Assembly (NCBI RefSeq): GCF_000177235.2
Contig: NC_014829.1
Span: 3,720,001-3,784,000, forward strand
Direction of reading: 5' to 3'
DNA: 64,000 nucleotides
Source of the DNA: Evansella cellulosilytica DSM 2522
GTDB taxonomy: Bacteria > Bacillota > Bacilli > Bacillales > Salisediminibacteriaceae
Below, in pieces: positions 2,201 through 54,040 of this stretch. The notes below the pieces were generated by a model that saw only the letters and a program-made list of their open reading frames with translations, did no database searches and was not told the DNA's origin. Position 1 is the first letter of the stretch. Each line of letters begins with the position of its first letter. A program made the position numbers and the translations under genes.

Positions 2201-2255
2201 TCATTTTGACATGAGATGATACCTCCTGGAGCTATACACCTTCCCCAAAGAAAAC

Positions 2256-2313
2256 GATGCCACATGTCTTTAAAGTACTAGTGAGTGCTCTTCTTGCTAC
2301 TACGCGTGGCATC
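2256..2313. repeat. Palindromic intergenic repeat, divergent copy A
   Basis: The stem GATGCCAC (2256-2263) pairs with GTGGCATC (2306-2313). The inner arm GTACTAGTGAG pairs imperfectly with CTTGCTACTAC. Sequence and fold match the elements at 10931, 11088, 20594 and 20750, but the outer GCGGTG/CACCGC arm and the flanking terminator hairpin are degenerate here. Confidence 0.75.
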
Positions 2314-2354
2314 ATTTCCACCTCCACACAATTTATGCTTTATTACCATTTAAA

Positions 2355-9547: not shown

Positions 9548-10881
9548 TGATGAAATTAATAAACCTTTTTCCACATTGGCGTATGTCGCCACCACAAATT
9601 TTAGCGTTAGGCTTTATATGTACGATTATCGTTGGCATGCTCATTTTAAAGCTACCAGTTAGTACGGTTCATGGTATCACATGGTTAGATGCATTGTTTA
9701 CCGCGACTTCGGCCACAACCGTTACAGGCCTTGTTGTTTTAAACACGGGGAGTGACTTCACCATTGTTGGGCAAATTGTCATTATGGTTTTAATCCAAAT
9801 TGGTGGGTTAGGACTAATGACCTTTGCCATTATTACCGTACTTGTATTGGGGAAAAGGATTGGACTACGAGAAAGGGTGCTAATACAAGAGGCTTTAAAT
9901 CAACACTCGATCGGTGGCGTCGTCAAGCTTGTAAAAATTCTATTTCTTTTTTCTATTACTATAGAATTCATTGCAGCCCTTCTTTTGTCATTCCGATGGG
10001 TTCCAGAGTATGGATGGAAGGATGGCGTTTTTACGAGTATCTTTCATTCTATTTCTGCATTTAACAATGCTGGTTTCAGTTTATGGTCTGATAGCTTAAC
10101 AGGATATAGAGGAGATCCAACTATAAACATAGTTATTACTGTTCTGTTTATTATTGGAGGCATCGGGTTCACAGTATTATATGACGTCATGACAACAAAA
10201 CGTTTTAGACTCTTTTCTTTACATACAAAAATTATGCTTACAGGAACTGTTGTAGTTAATATAATCGCCATGATTGTCATTTTTCTATTGGAATATGGAA
10301 ATCCTTTAACTTTGGGGGCTCTTCCGCTGAGCGACCAACTGTGGACTTCTTATTTTCAGGCTGTCACTCCACGGACAGCCGGCTTTAATACGCTAGAAAT
10401 TGGTGATATGAATCCAGGAACAATCGTATTTATGCTATTATTAATGTTTATTGGGGCAGGTAGTGCTTCTACTGGGAGTGGAGTAAAGCTTACTACATTT
10501 TTAATTATTATATTAGCAGTCATTACTTATTTACGAGGAAAGCAGGAAACTGTTATTTTTCACCGCACGATCCATCATGATATTATCATTCGTGCGTTAG
10601 CTATTGTTGTCATTAGTTTATCTATCATTTTTCTAGTAATTTTAGGATTAAGTGTGACCGAGAACGCTCCCTTTATTCATATTGTTTTTGAAGCCTTCTC
10701 TGCTTTTGGTACAGTTGGCTTGTCTATGGGGCTCACCGACCAACTCTCCATTTATGGAAAACAAATGATAATCGTATTAATGTTTATCGGTAGAATTGGT
10801 CCACTTACATTAGCATTTGCACTAGCAAAATCAGCAAAACGAACAGTTTCCTATCCAAAAGGCGAAGTATTTACTGGTTAA
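9547..10881 (+). CDS. ktrB: KtrB-type potassium uptake membrane subunit
   Basis: 444 residues (443 from the ATG at 9550). It has eight or more membrane helices in the Trk/Ktr/HKT fold with four pore loops containing the expected filter glycines, for example SATTVTGLVV, SAFNNAGFSLW, TPRTAGFNT and SAFGTVGLSMG. It conducts K+ (often Na+-dependent) and is gated by KtrA. The start GTG overlaps the ktrA stop, and ATG 9550 is the likelier alternative. A strong terminator follows directly, so ktrAB forms a two-gene riboswitch-controlled operon. Confidence 0.95.
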   Translation: MMKLINLFPHWRMSPPQILALGFICTIIVGMLILKLPVSTVHGITWLDALFTATSATTVTGLVVLNTGSDFTIVGQIVIMVLIQIGGLGLMTFAIITVLVLGKRIGLRERVLIQEALNQHSIGGVVKLVKILFLFSITIEFIAALLLSFRWVPEYGWKDGVFTSIFHSISAFNNAGFSLWSDSLTGYRGDPTINIVITVLFIIGGIGFTVLYDVMTTKRFRLFSLHTKIMLTGTVVVNIIAMIVIFLLEYGNPLTLGALPLSDQLWTSYFQAVTPRTAGFNTLEIGDMNPGTIVFMLLLMFIGAGSASTGSGVKLTTFLIIILAVITYLRGKQETVIFHRTIHHDIIIRALAIVVISLSIIFLVILGLSVTENAPFIHIVFEAFSAFGTVGLSMGLTDQLSIYGKQMIIVLMFIGRIGPLTLAFALAKSAKRTVSYPKGEVFTG

Positions 10882-10882
10882 G

Positions 10883-10923
10883 AAAAAAAAAACCGAGCTT
10901 GTTAAAGCTCGGTTTTTTTTTTT
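10883..10923. terminator. ktrAB terminator, part of palindromic repeat copy B
   Basis: AAACCGAGCTT/AAGCTCGGTTT hairpin flanked by an A10 run and a T12 run, so it works in both directions. The same hairpin recurs at 11046-11080 and 20539-20593, directly before the longer hairpin of the same repeat family. It therefore appears to belong to the repeat unit. Confidence 0.85.
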
Positions 10924-10930
10924 CTTAGAA

Positions 10931-11013
10931 GCGGTGTAAAAATCATGCCACATGCCTTTAAAGTAGTAGTGAGTGTCCTTCTCACTACTACGCGTGGCAG
11001 CATTTCCACCGCC
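10931..11013. repeat. Palindromic intergenic repeat, copy B (long hairpin)
   Basis: The outer arm GCGGTG (10931) pairs with CACCGC, the middle arm ATGCCAC with GTGGCA, and the inner arm GTAGTAGTGAG with CTCACTACTAC; the loop is TGTCCTT. A conserved tail CAAACTTTTACTTTCTTATC follows. Together with the upstream terminator hairpin it makes a unit of about 150 bp. No ORF or transposase is inside. Confidence 0.88.
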
Positions 11014-11045
11014 AAACTTTTACTTTCTTATCTTTATGAAGTACT

Positions 11046-11170
11046 AAAAACGAGCTTGTTAAAGCTCGGTTTTTGTTTTTCTTAGAAGCGGTGTAGAAAT
11101 GATACCACATGTCTTTAAAGTAGTAGTGAGTGTCCTTCTCACTACTACGCGTGGCAGCATTTCCACCGCC
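11046..11170. repeat. Palindromic intergenic repeat, copy C (terminator plus long hairpin)
   Basis: A terminator hairpin ACGAGCTT/AAGCTCGGT (about 11049-11075) is followed by the long hairpin 11088-11170. It is nearly identical to copy B, differing mainly at TAGAAATGATACC versus TAAAAATCATGCC. It lies in tandem behind copy B, so the ktrAB 3' region holds two full units. Confidence 0.88.
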
Positions 11171-11193
11171 AAATTTTTACTTTATTTTGAAAA

Positions 11194-11444
11194 GAGGCTG
11201 GGACACAAGTATTTGTATTATAGGAAAAGCCGAATAAGCTAAAATTTCAGTTTGGATTACTGTTATAATCCGCTTCAGAAATATACTTCGCTTTCCGCGG
11301 GCGGCTGGTGAGCCTCCTCGATGCTTTGCATCTGTGGGGTCTCACCCCTGCCTTTCCTCCCGCAGGAGTCTGCGTATATTTCTTACGCTAAAGTAGATTA
11401 TAGTTCGGTATTTCAATTAACTATTTTACTTTTGTCCCAACCTC
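11194..11444. repeat. Bacillales-type palindromic repeat with GGCTGGGAC ends
   Basis: Ends are inverted: GAGGCTGGGACACAAG (11194-11209) against CTTTTGTCCCAACCTC (11429-11444). The core contains CGCTTTCCGCGGGCGGCTGG, then GTGAGCCTCCTCG, CTGTGGGGTCTCACC and CCCGCAGGAGTCTGCG. I recognise this core as a dispersed non-coding repeat common in Bacillus-related genomes. It has no ORF of its own and sits between copy C and the truncated copy F. Confidence 0.8.
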
Positions 11445-11450
11445 TTTTTC

Positions 11451-11584
11451 TTAGAAGCGGTGAAGAAATCATGCCACATGGTCTTTCAAGTAGTAGCCTG
11501 TTTAAAAAGTACAACTTTCTCAGTGCCTTTTATTTGTTGCAATGGGCTACGCACATAGCTTAGGGACACTGAAAAAGTAGTAGC
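11451..11584. repeat. Palindromic repeat copy F interrupted by a second small element
   Basis: 11451-11497 is the left half of the palindromic repeat (TTAGAAGCGGTGAAGAAATC onwards). It is then interrupted by an 87-bp stretch with ACTTTCTCAGTG (11514) and CACTGAAAAAGT (11567) as inverted ends. AAGTAGTAGC occurs at 11488-11497 and again at 11575-11584, a direct repeat consistent with a target duplication. The rest of the gap up to 11667 shows no gene. Confidence 0.65.
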
Positions 11585-19909: not shown

Positions 19910-20620
19910 ATGCGTAATAAAAGTTTGATTTTAGTGATGATATCTTCATCAATTATATTTCTCTTTATAACTATGAACACAATATACAATGATGGTACAA
20001 GATTGGATGATGCTATTATAAATTGGAGTCATAATATTACCTCCCCATTTTTTGTAGAAGTACTACGCTTCCTCACCTATATTGGCTCTGGTGAATTTAT
20101 TATGATCTCATCAATCATTATATCTACCATTTTCCTGTTCCGAAAAGACTTGTACCATGCATTGTTTTTAATGTGTGTTACTGGTAGCGGAATTTTATTT
20201 AACTTTATTCTAAAAGTGGCTTTTCAAAGAGAGCGCCCTGGAGAAATGAGTTACATCGAAGTATTTGGATATTCATTCGAGCTAGCTTCCTATAGCTTTC
20301 CTAGCGGACACATGATGCGAACAGTATTGTTGTTTTCCTTTTTCATTTATTTCATTCACTCCTACTTTCTTAATAGAATCGTAAAAGTATCCCTTTATCT
20401 TCTTTCCATAACTATTACCTTAGGCGTTGGGGCTAGCAGAGTTGTATTAGGAGCACATTTCCCTTCTGACATTATCGCCGCTATTTTTATATCTATCACA
20501 TGGTTTATTTTATGTTATTTCAGTTTTAAAGCGATATTTTCTAAGAAAAACAAAAACGAGCATGGTAAAGCTCGTTTTTTGTTTTTCTTAGAAGCAGTGG
20601 AATTTCGCCGTAGCTCTTAA
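19910..20620 (+). CDS. PAP2-family membrane phosphatase
   Basis: 236 residues, about six membrane helices. All three phosphatase motifs are seen: KVAFQRERP (KX6RP) near residue 102, PSGH near 132 and SRVVLGAHFPSD (SRX5HX3D) near 187. The family dephosphorylates lipid or isoprenoid phosphates, such as undecaprenyl pyrophosphate or phosphatidylglycerol phosphate, at the outer face of the membrane. The ribosome binding site is AAGGCGG. The last 27 residues (from about SKKNKN) are encoded by palindromic repeat copy D, and the stop codon lies inside that repeat. The gene probably lost its original stop when the element inserted. The catalytic core is unaffected. Confidence 0.9.
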   Translation: MRNKSLILVMISSSIIFLFITMNTIYNDGTRLDDAIINWSHNITSPFFVEVLRFLTYIGSGEFIMISSIIISTIFLFRKDLYHALFLMCVTGSGILFNFILKVAFQRERPGEMSYIEVFGYSFELASYSFPSGHMMRTVLLFSFFIYFIHSYFLNRIVKVSLYLLSITITLGVGASRVVLGAHFPSDIIAAIFISITWFILCYFSFKAIFSKKNKNEHGKARFLFFLEAVEFRRSS

Positions 20621-20697
20621 TGTACTAGTGAGCGCTCTTCTCACTAGTACGCACGGCGATAAAATTACACTGCCTATTTTTACTTTCTTATCTTTTA
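20539..20697. repeat. Palindromic intergenic repeat, copy D (compensatory variant)
   Basis: The terminator hairpin TTCTAAGAAAAACAAAAA.../...TTTTTGTTTTTCTTAGAA (20539-20593) is followed by the long hairpin GCAGTG (20594) to CACTGC (20673). The arms differ from the other copies but remain paired: GCAGTG/CACTGC instead of GCGGTG/CACCGC, TCGCCGT/ACGGCGA instead of ATGCCAC/GTGGCAT, and GTACTAGTGAG/CTCACTAGTAC instead of GTAGTAGTGAG/CTCACTACTAC. Confidence 0.88.
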
Positions 20698-20743
20698 AGA
20701 AAAACAAAAAACGAGATTCGTAAAACTTTCCTTTAGTCTTGTC

Positions 20744-20832
20744 TTAGAAGTGGTGAAGAACTGATGCCACATGTCTTCAAAGTAGTAGTGAACGCTCTTC
20801 TCGCTACTACGCGTGGTATCATTTCCACCGCC
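20744..20832. repeat. Palindromic intergenic repeat, copy E
   Basis: GTGGTG...CACCGC outer arm, GATGCCAC/GTGGTATC middle arm and GTAGTAGTGA/TCGCTACTAC inner arm. Mismatches are mostly G-T type. The terminator hairpin in front (20700-20740) is degraded. It is directly in tandem with copy D. Confidence 0.85.
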
Positions 20833-20855
20833 AAATTTATACTTTCCTTTCCTTT

Positions 20856-20902: not shown

Positions 20903-21032
20903 GTTTGTGATGATTTGTGGATTTCAAAAGTAGTAGCCTCTTCTCGATACTGCAGGTGACGTAGTTTCTATGGGTAGCAGAGGAGGGTCAACTACCTTTA
21001 GATAGTTTTTTCTTTGTTTATGGGGAGATGAC

Positions 21033-21296
21033 ATGGCCCCATCTTACCTTCGCACACCTTTTTCTTTGCTCACGGGCAGATGGCAGACTCCCTTCTTACC
21101 TTCACTCTTCTTTTTGCTTGCTCACGGGCAGATGGCGACCTCCCATCTTACCTTCACACTCTTTTTTCTTTGCTCAAGGGCAGATGGCAGACTCCCATCT
21201 TACCTTCACACTCTTTTTTCTTTGCTCAAGGGCAGATGGCAGACTCCCATCTTACCTTCACACTCCTTTTTCTTTGCTCAAGGGCAGATGCCACCG
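21033..21296. repeat. 52-bp tandem repeat array, about 5 units
   Basis: CTCA(A/C)GGGCAGATGG recurs at 21069, 21121, 21173, 21225 and 21277, exactly 52 bp apart. Each unit carries AGATGG...CCATCT as an inverted repeat. The period is not a multiple of three, so one open frame opens all three frames; the overlapping ORFs here are artefacts. It lies between the convergent PAP2 and Gln-rich genes. Nothing else is seen in this gene-free stretch besides repeats D and E and the terminator. Confidence 0.95.
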
Positions 21297-21431
21297 CCAC
21301 CGCTTAACACTATCAACCTAAAAAGGGTTTGACTCATAAGGTATCAATTACCCCTTTGAGTCTAACCCTCATATTACATTTTTACATCCTCATAATTTAC
21401 AAAAAATGTTCATTATGTAGATACTTTTTAC

Positions 21432-25235: not shown

Positions 25236-25394
25236 ACCAATTTTTCAGTGACTGTTTTTTGTGATTGCAATGGCTACGCTCGTCGCACGCCTGATAGGAA
25301 AAACTCACTCCTATCAGGCTTTTTAATGATTGCGACGGCTACGCACATTGCTTAGTGACACTGAAAAAGTGAAAGAACACCACTTTTTTCAGTG
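25236..25394. repeat. Family-2 palindromic element with CACTGAAAAAGTG ends
   Basis: It starts TTTTTCAGTGAC (about 25239) and contains CACTGAAAAAGTG/CACTTTTTTCAGTG (25359-25394), an efficient-looking terminator for the GH30 gene. An inner hairpin GCCTGATAGG/CCTATCAGGC (25289-25319) is followed by T5. The segment GGCTACGCACATTGCTTAGT matches 11548-11562 closely (GGCTACGCACATAGCTTAG), showing a dispersed family. Confidence 0.75.
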
Positions 25395-25402
25395 CCTTCC
25401 TA

Positions 25403-37221: not shown

Positions 37222-37345
37222 ATTGAATACATCCTCTCCATCTCGCTCGTTCCTATATCATACCAAAATAAGGGATGCGCTTCAATTTTTTGCTTGTTTA
37301 GCTTTCTATATAATGGAGCGGACTCAAAAGGATTATTTTTGAAGG

Positions 37346-37377
37346 CACTGAAAAAGTTACTCTGTACTTTTTCAGTG
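37346..37377 (-). terminator. rnr terminator, family-2 repeat ends
   Basis: CACTGAAAAAGT/ACTTTTTCAGTG hairpin, the same arms as the repeats at 11514-11578 and 25359-25394. It lies in the 262-bp gap between rnr and smpB; I see nothing else there. Confidence 0.75.
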
Positions 37378-37483
37378 ACCTCCTAAATTTACCTTATCAG
37401 TCCCTCCCTTTTACTTCTACAATAAAAAGTTTCCTTTGTATCCATGGCGAGAAATAAGTATTCGCTCTCAAAAGAAATCAACA

Positions 37484-41881: not shown

Positions 41882-42020
41882 GCTCTACACCTCCAAGAGA
41901 CAGTAAAATCTTCTTAAAATATACCATGAAAACGTGGACAAAGCAATATGGTATATTATTGTATCTTTAGGTGATAGTTTTAGTAGATTTGTTTTTATAG
42001 ATATGAAAGTGGGATTCGGG

Positions 42021-43534
42021 GAGGGTGGTGGTCCCGGGTTCGTTCTAACCCAGGTTTCTTTACCTCACCTTCAAACGCGCTCATTCTCTTGTTTTCTCGC
42101 TTTTTGAAGGTGAGAATTTTGAACCCGGGTTCGCTCTAACCCGGGTTACTTCTCCTCACCTTCAAACGCGCTCATTCTCTCGTTTTCTCGCTTTCTGAAG
42201 GTGAGAATTTTGAACCCGGGTTCGCTCTAACCCGGGTTACTTCTCCCCACCTTCAAACGCGCTCATTCTCTCGTTTTCTCTCGTTTTGAAGGTGAGAATT
42301 TTGAACCCGGGTTCACTTTAACCCGGGTTTCTTTACCCCACCTTCAAACGCGCTCATTCTCTCGTTTTCTCGCTTTTTGAAGGTGAGAATTTTGAACCCG
42401 GGTTCGTTCTAACCCGGGTTTCTTTACCTCACCTTCAAACGCGCTCATTCTCTCGTTTCCTCTCGTTTTGAAGGTGAGAATTTTGAACCCGGGTTCACTC
42501 TAACCCGGGTTACTTTACCCACCTTCAAACGCGCTCATTCTCTCGTTTTCTCGCTTTTTGAAGGTGAGAATTTTGATCCCGGGTTCGTTCTAACCCGGGT
42601 TACTTTACCTCACCTTCAAACGCGCTCATTCTCTCGTTTTCTCGCTTTTTGAAGGTGAGAATTTTGATCCCGGGTTCACTCTAACCCAGGTTACTTTACC
42701 TCACCTTCAAACGCGCTCATTCTCTCGTTTTCTCTCGTTTTGAAGGTGAGAATTTTGAACCCGGGTTCACTCTAACCCGGGTTTCTTTACCTCACCTTCA
42801 AACGCGCTCATTCTCTCGTTTCCTCTCGTTTTGAAGGTGAGAATTTTGATCCCGGGTTCGTTCTAACCCGGGTTACTTCTCCCCACCTTCAAACGCGCTC
42901 ATTCTCTCGTTTTCTCTCGTTTTGAAGGTGAGAATTTTGAACCCGGGTTCGTTCTAACCCGGGTTACTTCTCCCCACCTTCAAACGCGCTCATTCTCTCG
43001 TTTTCTCGCTTTTTGAAGGTGGGAATTTTGAACCCGGGTTCGTTCTAACCCGGGTTTCTTTACCTCACCTTCAAACGCGCTCATTCTCTCGTTTTCTCTC
43101 GTTTTGAAGGTGAGAATTTTGAACCCGGGTTCGTTCTAACCCGGGTTACTTCTCCCCACCTTCAAACGCGCTCATTCTCTCGTTTTCTCGCTTTTTGAAG
43201 GTGAGAATTTTGATCCCGGGTTCGTTCTAACCCGGGTTTCTTTACCCCACCTTCAAACGCGCTCATTCTCTCGTTTTCTCGCTTTTTGAAGGTGAGAATT
43301 TTGAACCCGGGTTCGTTCTAACCCGGGTTACTTTACCTCACCTTCAAACGCGTTCATTCTCTCGTTTTCTCTCGTTTTGAAGGTGAGAATTTTGAACCCG
43401 GGTTCGCTCTAACCCGGGTTACTTTACCCCACCTTCAAACGCGCTCATTCTCTCGTTTTCTCGCTTTTTGAAGGTGAGAATTTTGAACCCGGGTTCACTT
43501 TAACCCGGGTTACTTCTCCTCACCTTCCAGAATT
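42021..43534. repeat. 91-bp tandem repeat array, about 16.6 units
   Basis: GAACCCGGG or a variant (GATCCCGGG, GGTCCCGGG) starts units at 42030, 42121, 42212, 42303, 42394, 42485, then 42575 (one 90-bp step) and at 91-bp steps to 43485. Each unit has two inverted repeats: AACCCGGGTT around a short loop, and CACCTTCAAA...TTTTGAAGGTG around an AT/C-rich loop. Units vary at two coordinated spots (TCTCGCTTTTTG or TCTCTCGTTTTG; GTTCGT, GTTCAC or GTTCGC). It fills most of the 1760-bp gap between eno and secG; no gene is inside. Confidence 0.97.
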
Positions 43535-43641
43535 CCAGTAACTCTGTAGCTACAACATTCAAAGTTTATAAAGATTATATGTAAAAAAATGACTCCAAAG
43601 GGTTAATATCACCCTTTGAAGTCACCATAAACAATTAATAA

Positions 43642-53511: not shown

Positions 53512-53547
53512 AAGTCTAGTGAGAAGTAATCTTGCTAGGCTTTTTTT
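53512..53547 (+). terminator. clpP terminator
   Basis: AGTCTAG/CTAGGCT stem followed by T7, 11 bp after the clpP stop. Confidence 0.8.
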
Positions 53548-53604
53548 ATTTTAGGTGGCGGGATTGAGGCGTGAGGGTGGTGGGCTTTCTACAGATTATA
53601 GTGT

Positions 53605-53956
53605 CTTTTAACGGAATACTAGCTTATCTTGCTTTCCTTTCTACTGCATACAGCTTCCTGGAAAGGAATACTAAGCCACTTTGCTTTCCTTTCTAAGGCA
53701 CTCTGCATCCTGGAAAGGAATACTAAGCCACTTTGCTTTCCTTTCTAAGCCATTCAGCTTCCTGGAAAGGAATACTAAGCCACTTTGCTTTCCTTTCTAA
53801 GGCATTCAGCTTCCTGGAAAGGAATACTAAGCCACTTTGCTTTCCTTTCTAAGGCACTCAGATTCCTGGAAAGGAATACTAAGCCACTTTGCTTTCCTTT
53901 CTGAGGCACGCAGATTCCTGGAAAGGAATACTAAGCCACTTTGCTTTCCTTTCTGA
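53605..53956. repeat. 52-bp tandem repeat array, about 6.8 units
   Basis: CCTGGAAAGGAATACTAAGC recurs at 53657, 53709, 53761, 53813, 53865 and 53917, exactly 52 bp apart; 53605 begins a degenerate first unit. Each unit contains GGAAAG...CTTTCC as an inverted repeat. It shares the 52-bp period, but not the sequence, with the array at 21033, and it also sits between convergent genes (clpP and crh). Besides terminators, nothing else is seen in this gap. Confidence 0.96.
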
Positions 53957-53980
53957 CGCCAACAAACTCACTCAAACAAA

Positions 53981-54040
53981 AAGAGCCTCTCTTCTAGTTA
54001 GATTACAATTACAATCTAATTAGAAGAGAGGCCCTTTTTT
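53981..54040. terminator. Bidirectional terminator between clpP and crh
   Basis: GCCTCTCTTCTAGTTAGATT pairs with AATCTAATTAGAAGAGAGGC, with A-rich sequence on one side and T6 on the other. The stem is nearly perfect over 20 bp. Confidence 0.85.

Follow-up and report, generated by a model that had tools for sequence, protein, structure and literature searches.

A superfamily of compound hairpin repeats in Evansella cellulosilytica in which fold and loops appear to be kept while stem sequences vary

What keeps the shape of a palindromic repeat whose copies differ in sequence? The question is raised by positions 20539-20832 of a 64,000-nucleotide stretch of the Evansella cellulosilytica DSM 2522 genome (NC_014829.1, positions 3,720,001 to 3,784,000; hereafter the window), where a sequence-only reading had noted a repeat with copies at 2256, 10931, 11088, 11451 (broken), 20594 and 20750 sharing one fold. 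All six are present in the window, as matches to our covariance model R1 or, at 11451, as the broken copy. The interval 20539-20832 itself consists of two tandem units, one A-type and one B-type. Each unit comprises, in order, a hairpin (hp1) of the form A-run, G+C stem, T-run that is either perfect or decayed, about 3 nt, a compound hairpin of about 81-83 nt (hp2) and an AT-rich tail, which in units of subtype X1 ends in a second terminator-like hairpin, hp3. A seventh copy, of subtype X1, lies on the other strand of the window. The features are as follows.

2250..2320, + strand: hp2 of subtype B with a damaged 5' arm (R1, 39.6 bits)
10879..10928, + strand: hp1 of a B-type unit, its start coinciding with the stop codon, at 10879-10881, of the ORF upstream, a TrkH-type cation transporter
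10931..11013, + strand: hp2 of subtype B (R1, 53 bits)
11044..11085, + strand: hp1 of the tandem second unit, with a 157-bp period (consensus scan)
11088..11170, + strand: hp2 of subtype B (R1, 48.8 bits)
11445..11581, + strand: broken copy, a B-type 5' half fused to an X1-type fragment of the other strand (GGCTACGCACATAGCTTAGGGACACTGAAAAAGT)
20542..20590, + strand: hp1 of the A-type unit, a terminator-like hairpin, TAAGAAAAACAAAAACGAGC..GCTCGTTTTTTGTTTTTCTTA (sequence, fold and consensus scan of both strands)
20594..20674, + strand: hp2 of subtype A (R1, 104.7 bits)
20697..20746, + strand: decayed hp1 of the B-type unit (sequence)
20750..20832, + strand: hp2 of subtype B (R1, 40.8 bits)
25266..25351, - strand: hp2 of subtype X1, GCAATGTGCGTAGCCGTCGC..GCCTGATAGGAG.. 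on the - strand, the seventh copy in the window (R2, 93 bits)
25357..25396, - strand: hp1 of the X1 unit, GGCACTGAAAAAAGTGGTGTTCTTTCACTTTTTCAGTGTC on the - strand
37344..37379, no strand assigned: hp1/hp3-type hairpin GGCACTGAAAAAGTTACTCTGTACTTTTTCAGTGAC with no adjoining hp2 match

Folded as DNA, 20544-20690 gives a z-score of -11.0 against dinucleotide shuffles; the fold of 20700-20848 is weaker (z = -2.4) because its hp1 is decayed. The unit had also been said to carry its own terminator hairpin. Two hp1 hairpins of the window are indeed terminator-like on both strands in a consensus scan (20552-20579 and 11051-11068), but taken as a whole the scan returned 7 sites against 8.0 in shuffles and so gave no excess. 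Judged by its letters, hp1 looks like a two-way terminator.

Several other repeats share the window. Two different 52-bp tandem arrays occupy 20993-21342, just downstream of the 20539-20832 element, and 53533-54006, directly behind a Clp protease gene. A repeat at 11193-11445 has the ends AGAGGCTGGGACA and TTTTGTCCCAACCTCT and the core CTTTCCGCGGGCGGCTGGTGAGCC; the core matches at least six of eight genomes of the same genus, with two relatives (G005 and G007) absent among the matches listed. A 91-bp hairpin repeat (TTGAAGGTGAGAATTTTGAACCCGGGTTCGTTCTAACCCGGGTTAC..) forms a tandem array of about 17 units at 41927-43590; elsewhere in the genome (L104:2244-3330) the same array starts about 220 bp behind an ORF for a Y1 protein of 191 aa. 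It is likely a RAYT-linked repeat.

To what extent does the repeat occur beyond the window? The source genome is complete (4,681,672 bp) and was searched with two covariance models, R1 and R2, the latter built on 11 rows. R1 gave at least 111 matches, 10 of which are reverse-strand echoes; omitting these and 2882591 left 100 A/B sites. R2 gave at least 136 matches, from which we counted 134 sites after omitting 3853899, an R1 site, and 1834506. The combined total of at least 234 sites is a floor, because each search scored the best 150 candidates only, and one additional hp2, beyond the R1 and R2 lists, was found in locus L225. The R2 sites include X-type hairpins, a family with the same plan as A/B that has other arms and the same loops; part of an X unit is what is fused into the broken 11451 copy. 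In two other genomes (G008 and G014) the model of subtype A matches eight places where the arms are largely different and the loops are again the same.

Among the 35 genomes of the family, R2 matched 13 including the source, with 1 to at least 129 matches each, and found no match in the other 22, four of which (G002-G005) belong to the same genus as the source; the carriers include G001, G006, G007, G008, G023 and G033. Across the order it matched 14 of 299 sampled genomes and 8 of 114 genera, the source included, when the best 15 or fewer candidates per genome were scored; a scan of the phylum with model R3 matched one of 398 genomes, the source itself, with the best 11 or fewer candidates per genome. 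Carriers identified by pattern scan and R2 are Evansella caseinilytica, Halalkalibacter alkaliphilus, H. oceani, H. okhensis and a Bacillus MAG, and Evansella vedderi DSM 9768 (G008) also carries the repeat. Three pattern matches in unrelated MAGs had no R2 match and were taken as chance. One strict pattern found no match in viral contigs, and blastn with one X1 unit found none in plasmids and phages. As far as sampled, the hairpin repeat is confined to one order. In a genome of another family of that order (locus L198 of G084), the hairpin that follows hp2, GGCATTGAAAAAGTTGGTTTGTACTTTTTCAGTGGCCTC, is almost identical to hp3 of X1 units in the source genome, a likeness in sequence that may reflect horizontal spread.

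The search of the genome and of related Bacillaceae thus turned up many copies, and it allowed us to ask whether the arms co-vary to preserve pairing, as the sequence-only reading had proposed from three paired arm differences in the copy at 20594. These differences are present and the paired changes are real, but that copy is no outlier: it belongs to the majority subtype, A, and the remaining copies named in the window belong to subtype B. The six window copies alone do not prove covariation, because they compare two subtypes and no covariation in excess of chance is seen within A. Fifty copies passed a full-length filter; alignment A2 holds 44 rows, and the subtype alignments A3 (33 A-type rows) and A4 (8 B-type rows) both omit one identical row, one with deletions and one with a foreign 5' arm. 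In the 33 A-type rows, aligned with MAFFT, stem changes are mostly one-sided and two pairs are changed on both sides, which 143 of 500 shuffles also reach.

Across subtypes and species, in contrast, covariation goes far beyond controls. A model-fitted alignment of 79 matches, comprising 75 distinct rows, has changes on both sides at 28 of 28 pairs, with 445 such cells against 102 in shuffles (reached in 0 of 500) and 43-93 in slid versions. Because that alignment was fitted by the model, two smaller MAFFT alignments are the fairer test. In the first, 16 diverse rows folded de novo to a consensus support 15 of 17 pairs by both-side changes; in the second, the 11-row R2 alignment, 16 of 27 pairs are so supported, with 46 both-side cells where shuffles give 12.4. 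The rows of both were themselves found with a structure model, and both agree with the 75-row result.

The fold on which these data converge consists of an outer stem, a symmetric GNA/GNA internal loop, a middle stem, an asymmetric loop ATCTTTTAAA opposite GCG, an inner stem and a 7-nt apical loop, TGNNTTT, closed by GAG/CTC. Its fixed parts are the apical TGNNTTT, the loop ATCTTTTAAA and the opposed GNA/GNA, which subtypes A and B lack. The two GNA triplets, one on each arm between the outer and middle stems, oppose each other as G.A, N.N and A.G, and the non-pairing is itself conserved (G11.A121 in 62 of 75 rows, A13.G119 in 57); GNA occurs in both arms of 52 of the 75 rows and the strict form GCGNAGC in both halves of 20, as against none of the 100 A/B copies. 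GCGNAGC is known as a very stable DNA mini-hairpin (PMC4686876). We considered and rejected a reading as two such mini-hairpins, since the pairs covary between the arms and not within one arm: between arms, pairing reaches 82-97% with 3-14 changes on both sides, and within an arm 66-89% with 1-3. Because the flanking pairs covary between arms, we read the motif as an internal loop. Directly 5' of hp2, 50 of 74 distinct upstream stretches contain a hairpin of at least 12 pairs, against 4 in shuffles; in the other 24 it is degraded or absent. Stem letters thus change from subtype to subtype and from species to species, whereas pairing and loops stay, so that it appears to be the folded shape that is conserved.

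Could such a pattern arise with no selection on the fold? Quasi-palindrome template switching in replication would perfect the arms and leave paired changes behind as a mutational artefact. It fits arms that are long, near-perfect inverted repeats, the difference of whole arms between subtypes, as expected of block templating, and the lack of excess paired changes within subtype A. However, it would erase GNA/GNA, ATCTTTTAAA and the asymmetric GCG side, which are among the features most conserved across genera, and it does not account for the preference for G.T over A.C on one strand. The conserved unpaired loops argue against perfect-palindrome copying, which would remove such mismatches, and we regard this explanation as distinctly improbable.

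The asymmetry between strands bears on which molecule folds. In the 75 rows, G.T cells outnumber A.C cells 56 to 22, and among stem changes in subtype A, counted with kinship ignored, 39 keep a + strand G.T wobble and 17 would break the pair. With RNA parameters, 69 of 75 rows give the better fold as the + strand, by a mean of 3.7 kcal/mol, and in a reversed control 54 of 75 lean the same way, by 1.6 kcal/mol. When DNA parameters are used, the strand preference of the real rows does not exceed that of the reversed-sequence control. The GNA/GNA motif is present on the + strand only. This evidence favours RNA or one single DNA strand. Since hp1 precedes hp2 by about 3 nt on the + strand, transcription would have to read through hp1 to yield a + RNA of hp2; if hp1 terminates, it would stop most such transcripts, and X1 units have a similar hairpin on the far side. 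A transcribed hp2 is thus not easy to see.

Placement in the genome is also far from even. In stretches chosen around elements, with ORFs called by a simple script, 56 of 82 convergent gaps hold an element, as against 55 of 160 tandem gaps and 7 of 55 divergent ones (Fisher p = 1e-9). Of 92 A/B copies between ORFs, 47 have convergent and 7 have divergent neighbours; 75 follow a gene on the hp2 side, the mRNA of which carries the other strand, and 57 follow one on the hp1 side, the mRNA of which carries the + strand. Orientation relative to replication is shared by 94 of 100 A/B copies and 84 of 134 R2 copies, and the ORF strand bias in the stretches examined is 0.71. One explanation of this distribution is a structured RNA device of 3' regions, that is, a host-kept module behind genes that serves as terminator, RNase barrier or protein-binding hairpin and is spread by recombination. 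The concentration behind genes and in convergent gaps, the hairpin that immediately precedes hp2 in 50 of 74 upstream stretches, drawn from several genera, and the RNA-like strand asymmetry would all be expected of such a device. Yet hp1 would shield the better-folding strand from transcription, and match number ranges from 0 to at least 129 inside one genus. In addition, hp2 is unmatched in three relatives at the one orthologous site compared: behind the TrkH-type gene, where the source genome has two B units, neither R1 nor R3 finds a match in G002, G005 or G007, G007 having an hp1-like hairpin alone and its sole R3 match of the locus on the gene's other side. Together with the X units that abut or nest in A/B copies, described below, these findings make an RNA device unlikely in our view. 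In G002 (L257), the orthologous gap behind the TrkH-type gene is filled by a dense array of short repeats (..TTGAATGCTTGGAGCTTGGTCATGACGAGGAAAATACACTG..).

Signs of mobility take several forms. One is the lineage-specific presence of hp2 behind the TrkH-type gene, the site compared above. Units also occur in tandem arrays of 2-5. At nine R2 sites, read by eye, an X unit directly adjoins an A/B hp2 half-copy cut at the apical loop, although the nine may represent few events because several are tandem or near-identical; at 985056 the half-copies on the two sides of the X unit belong to different subtypes. An A copy at 2882394-2882684 carries an X hp2 within its inner stem. A 43-bp solo hairpin (L224:627; position 1132426 of the source genome, G000:C1) sits within a reading frame, bordered by a 9-bp direct repeat. 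This case suggests that a bare hairpin can move; Pfam returned no family above its cut-off on either side, and the hairpin likely interrupts one gene. It is the only one of 80 hp1/hp3-type hairpins with a flanking repeat of at least 7 bp; most of the 80 are inner parts of units.

These observations bring in a second kind of mobile element, ordinary MITEs that a DDE transposase cuts and pastes by palindromic ends, with hp2 as a passenger. The genome holds 178 occurrences of the palindrome GGNCACTGAAAAAGT, the end of X1 units, and none of the reversed pattern, and 53 of the first 100 listed occurrences are at least 260 bp from every listed R1 or R2 site (at least one of the 53, in L225, has an hp2 missed by those lists). 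Some end motifs of this class bound elements of about 290-375 bp, and the 9-bp duplication at the solo hairpin also speaks for this reading. By eye, the ends of X1 and X3 form inverted repeats, those of A/B not clearly so. Against the MITE reading, hp2 as a passenger would not have retained its shape in different genera, with covariation at 28 of 28 pairs; the ends vary in sequence from subtype to subtype, and target duplications are almost absent at the 80 hairpins. Nor was an autonomous partner seen among the two candidates examined: a six-copy DDE_Tnp_1 insertion sequence was rejected for its different ends, ATGAATCAATTTCATAA, and a pair of end motifs at 557084/558554, 1.47 kb apart, was rejected as an insertion sequence since it holds ordinary ORFs. 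We consider it quite unlikely that the repeats are ordinary MITEs.

Y1 transposases were likewise rejected as the mobiliser, on linkage and co-occurrence. The domain Y1_Tnp is present in 11 of 13 genomes with the repeat and 15 of 22 without it (p = 0.43, Y1 subgroups pooled), and over about 1.5 kb around the three Y1 genes of the source R3 gives no match at E up to 1, the best R1 score at these loci being 12.2 bits. Among the candidates examined, the Y1 transposases and the six-copy DDE insertion sequence, no mobilising gene was found.

Does the repeat belong to a known system? In Rfam 15 the window has four matches at gathering score, none of them at a copy, and a search of ten copy-bearing loci, with E up to 5, returned 9 matches that all fall short of their gathering scores; among them, L029:1618-1733 (19.1 bits against a gathering score of 97) coincides in part with an hp1-hp2 unit, and some of the rest fall on hp1. 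A literature search, mostly without subscription papers and so without the main bcr papers, did not turn up a name for the hairpin repeat. REPIN elements, mobilised by the Y1 protein RAYT, resemble it in having hairpin arms with compensatory changes. They differ from it in that the present hairpin is compound and much larger, with terminator-like flanks, and combines conserved loops with free arms, whereas REPIN/REP elements have conserved REP ends; moreover, no match adjoins the Y1 genes of the source genome at the thresholds given above, and the presence of the repeat does not follow that of Y1. The bcr1-bcr18 repeats of the Bacillus cereus group are 100-400 bp long with mobile features, bcr1 reaching up to 130 copies (PMC6542083) and being scored as structured (PMC2267715); the former paper restricts the first bcr element to the B. 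cereus group and ties mobility to a TTTAT motif. TTTAT is present in A/B and X2 tails, but the named carriers here are Evansella and Halalkalibacter, not the B. cereus group. Bhal-1 of Bacillus halodurans, a 74-bp stem-loop repeat with 36 copies that is scored as structured (PMC2267715), is alike in being a structured stem-loop repeat family. Mitochondrial repetitive hairpin elements are repeated intergenic hairpins that form double hairpins through tandem insertion (PMC2800124); the sponge elements of that account keep their stems and vary in their loops, the reverse of the present pattern. The hairpin repeat would work like a REPIN or a bcr element, but of the defining features of those families that were compared, covarying arms are the one found here.

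We favor a model, held with about even confidence, in which the hairpin repeats form a superfamily of non-autonomous mobile elements whose fold is recognised in trans. We envision that a factor encoded elsewhere would recognise the folded hp1-hp2 strand by its loops rather than its stem letters, and would copy or move that strand. Subtypes would arise as the arms drift through compensating changes, and new subtypes would then amplify by dispersal and tandem duplication, with the terminator-like hairpins making insertion behind genes harmless. The model draws on the covarying arms, the conserved unpaired loops, the strand asymmetry, the preference for convergent gaps, the half-copies and nested copies, and the lineage-specific presence at one site. 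Against it stand the absence of a mobilising gene among the candidates examined, the single flanking duplication in 80 hairpins, the lack of covariation within subtype A, the position of hp1 before hp2 and the strand test with DNA parameters. In a stronger version, less likely than not, the element would be recognised purely by shape: with the loops of one folded strand fixed (apical TGNNTTT, ATCTTTTAAA and the opposed GNA/GNA) and the stem letters free, one trans-acting factor could propagate subtypes in unlimited variety, which searches by sequence fail to bring together; subtypes might even insert into one another's apical loops.

Sequence is what usually defines a small bacterial repeat. 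In this one most of the sequence is free and the fold persists across genera and hundreds of copies, so that the repeat amounts to a natural covariation experiment inside single genomes. The covariance models are ready for a search for the recogniser that compares, within one genus, species with and without the repeat. Should the flanking hairpins indeed terminate transcription, the family would also be a large natural set of portable terminators.
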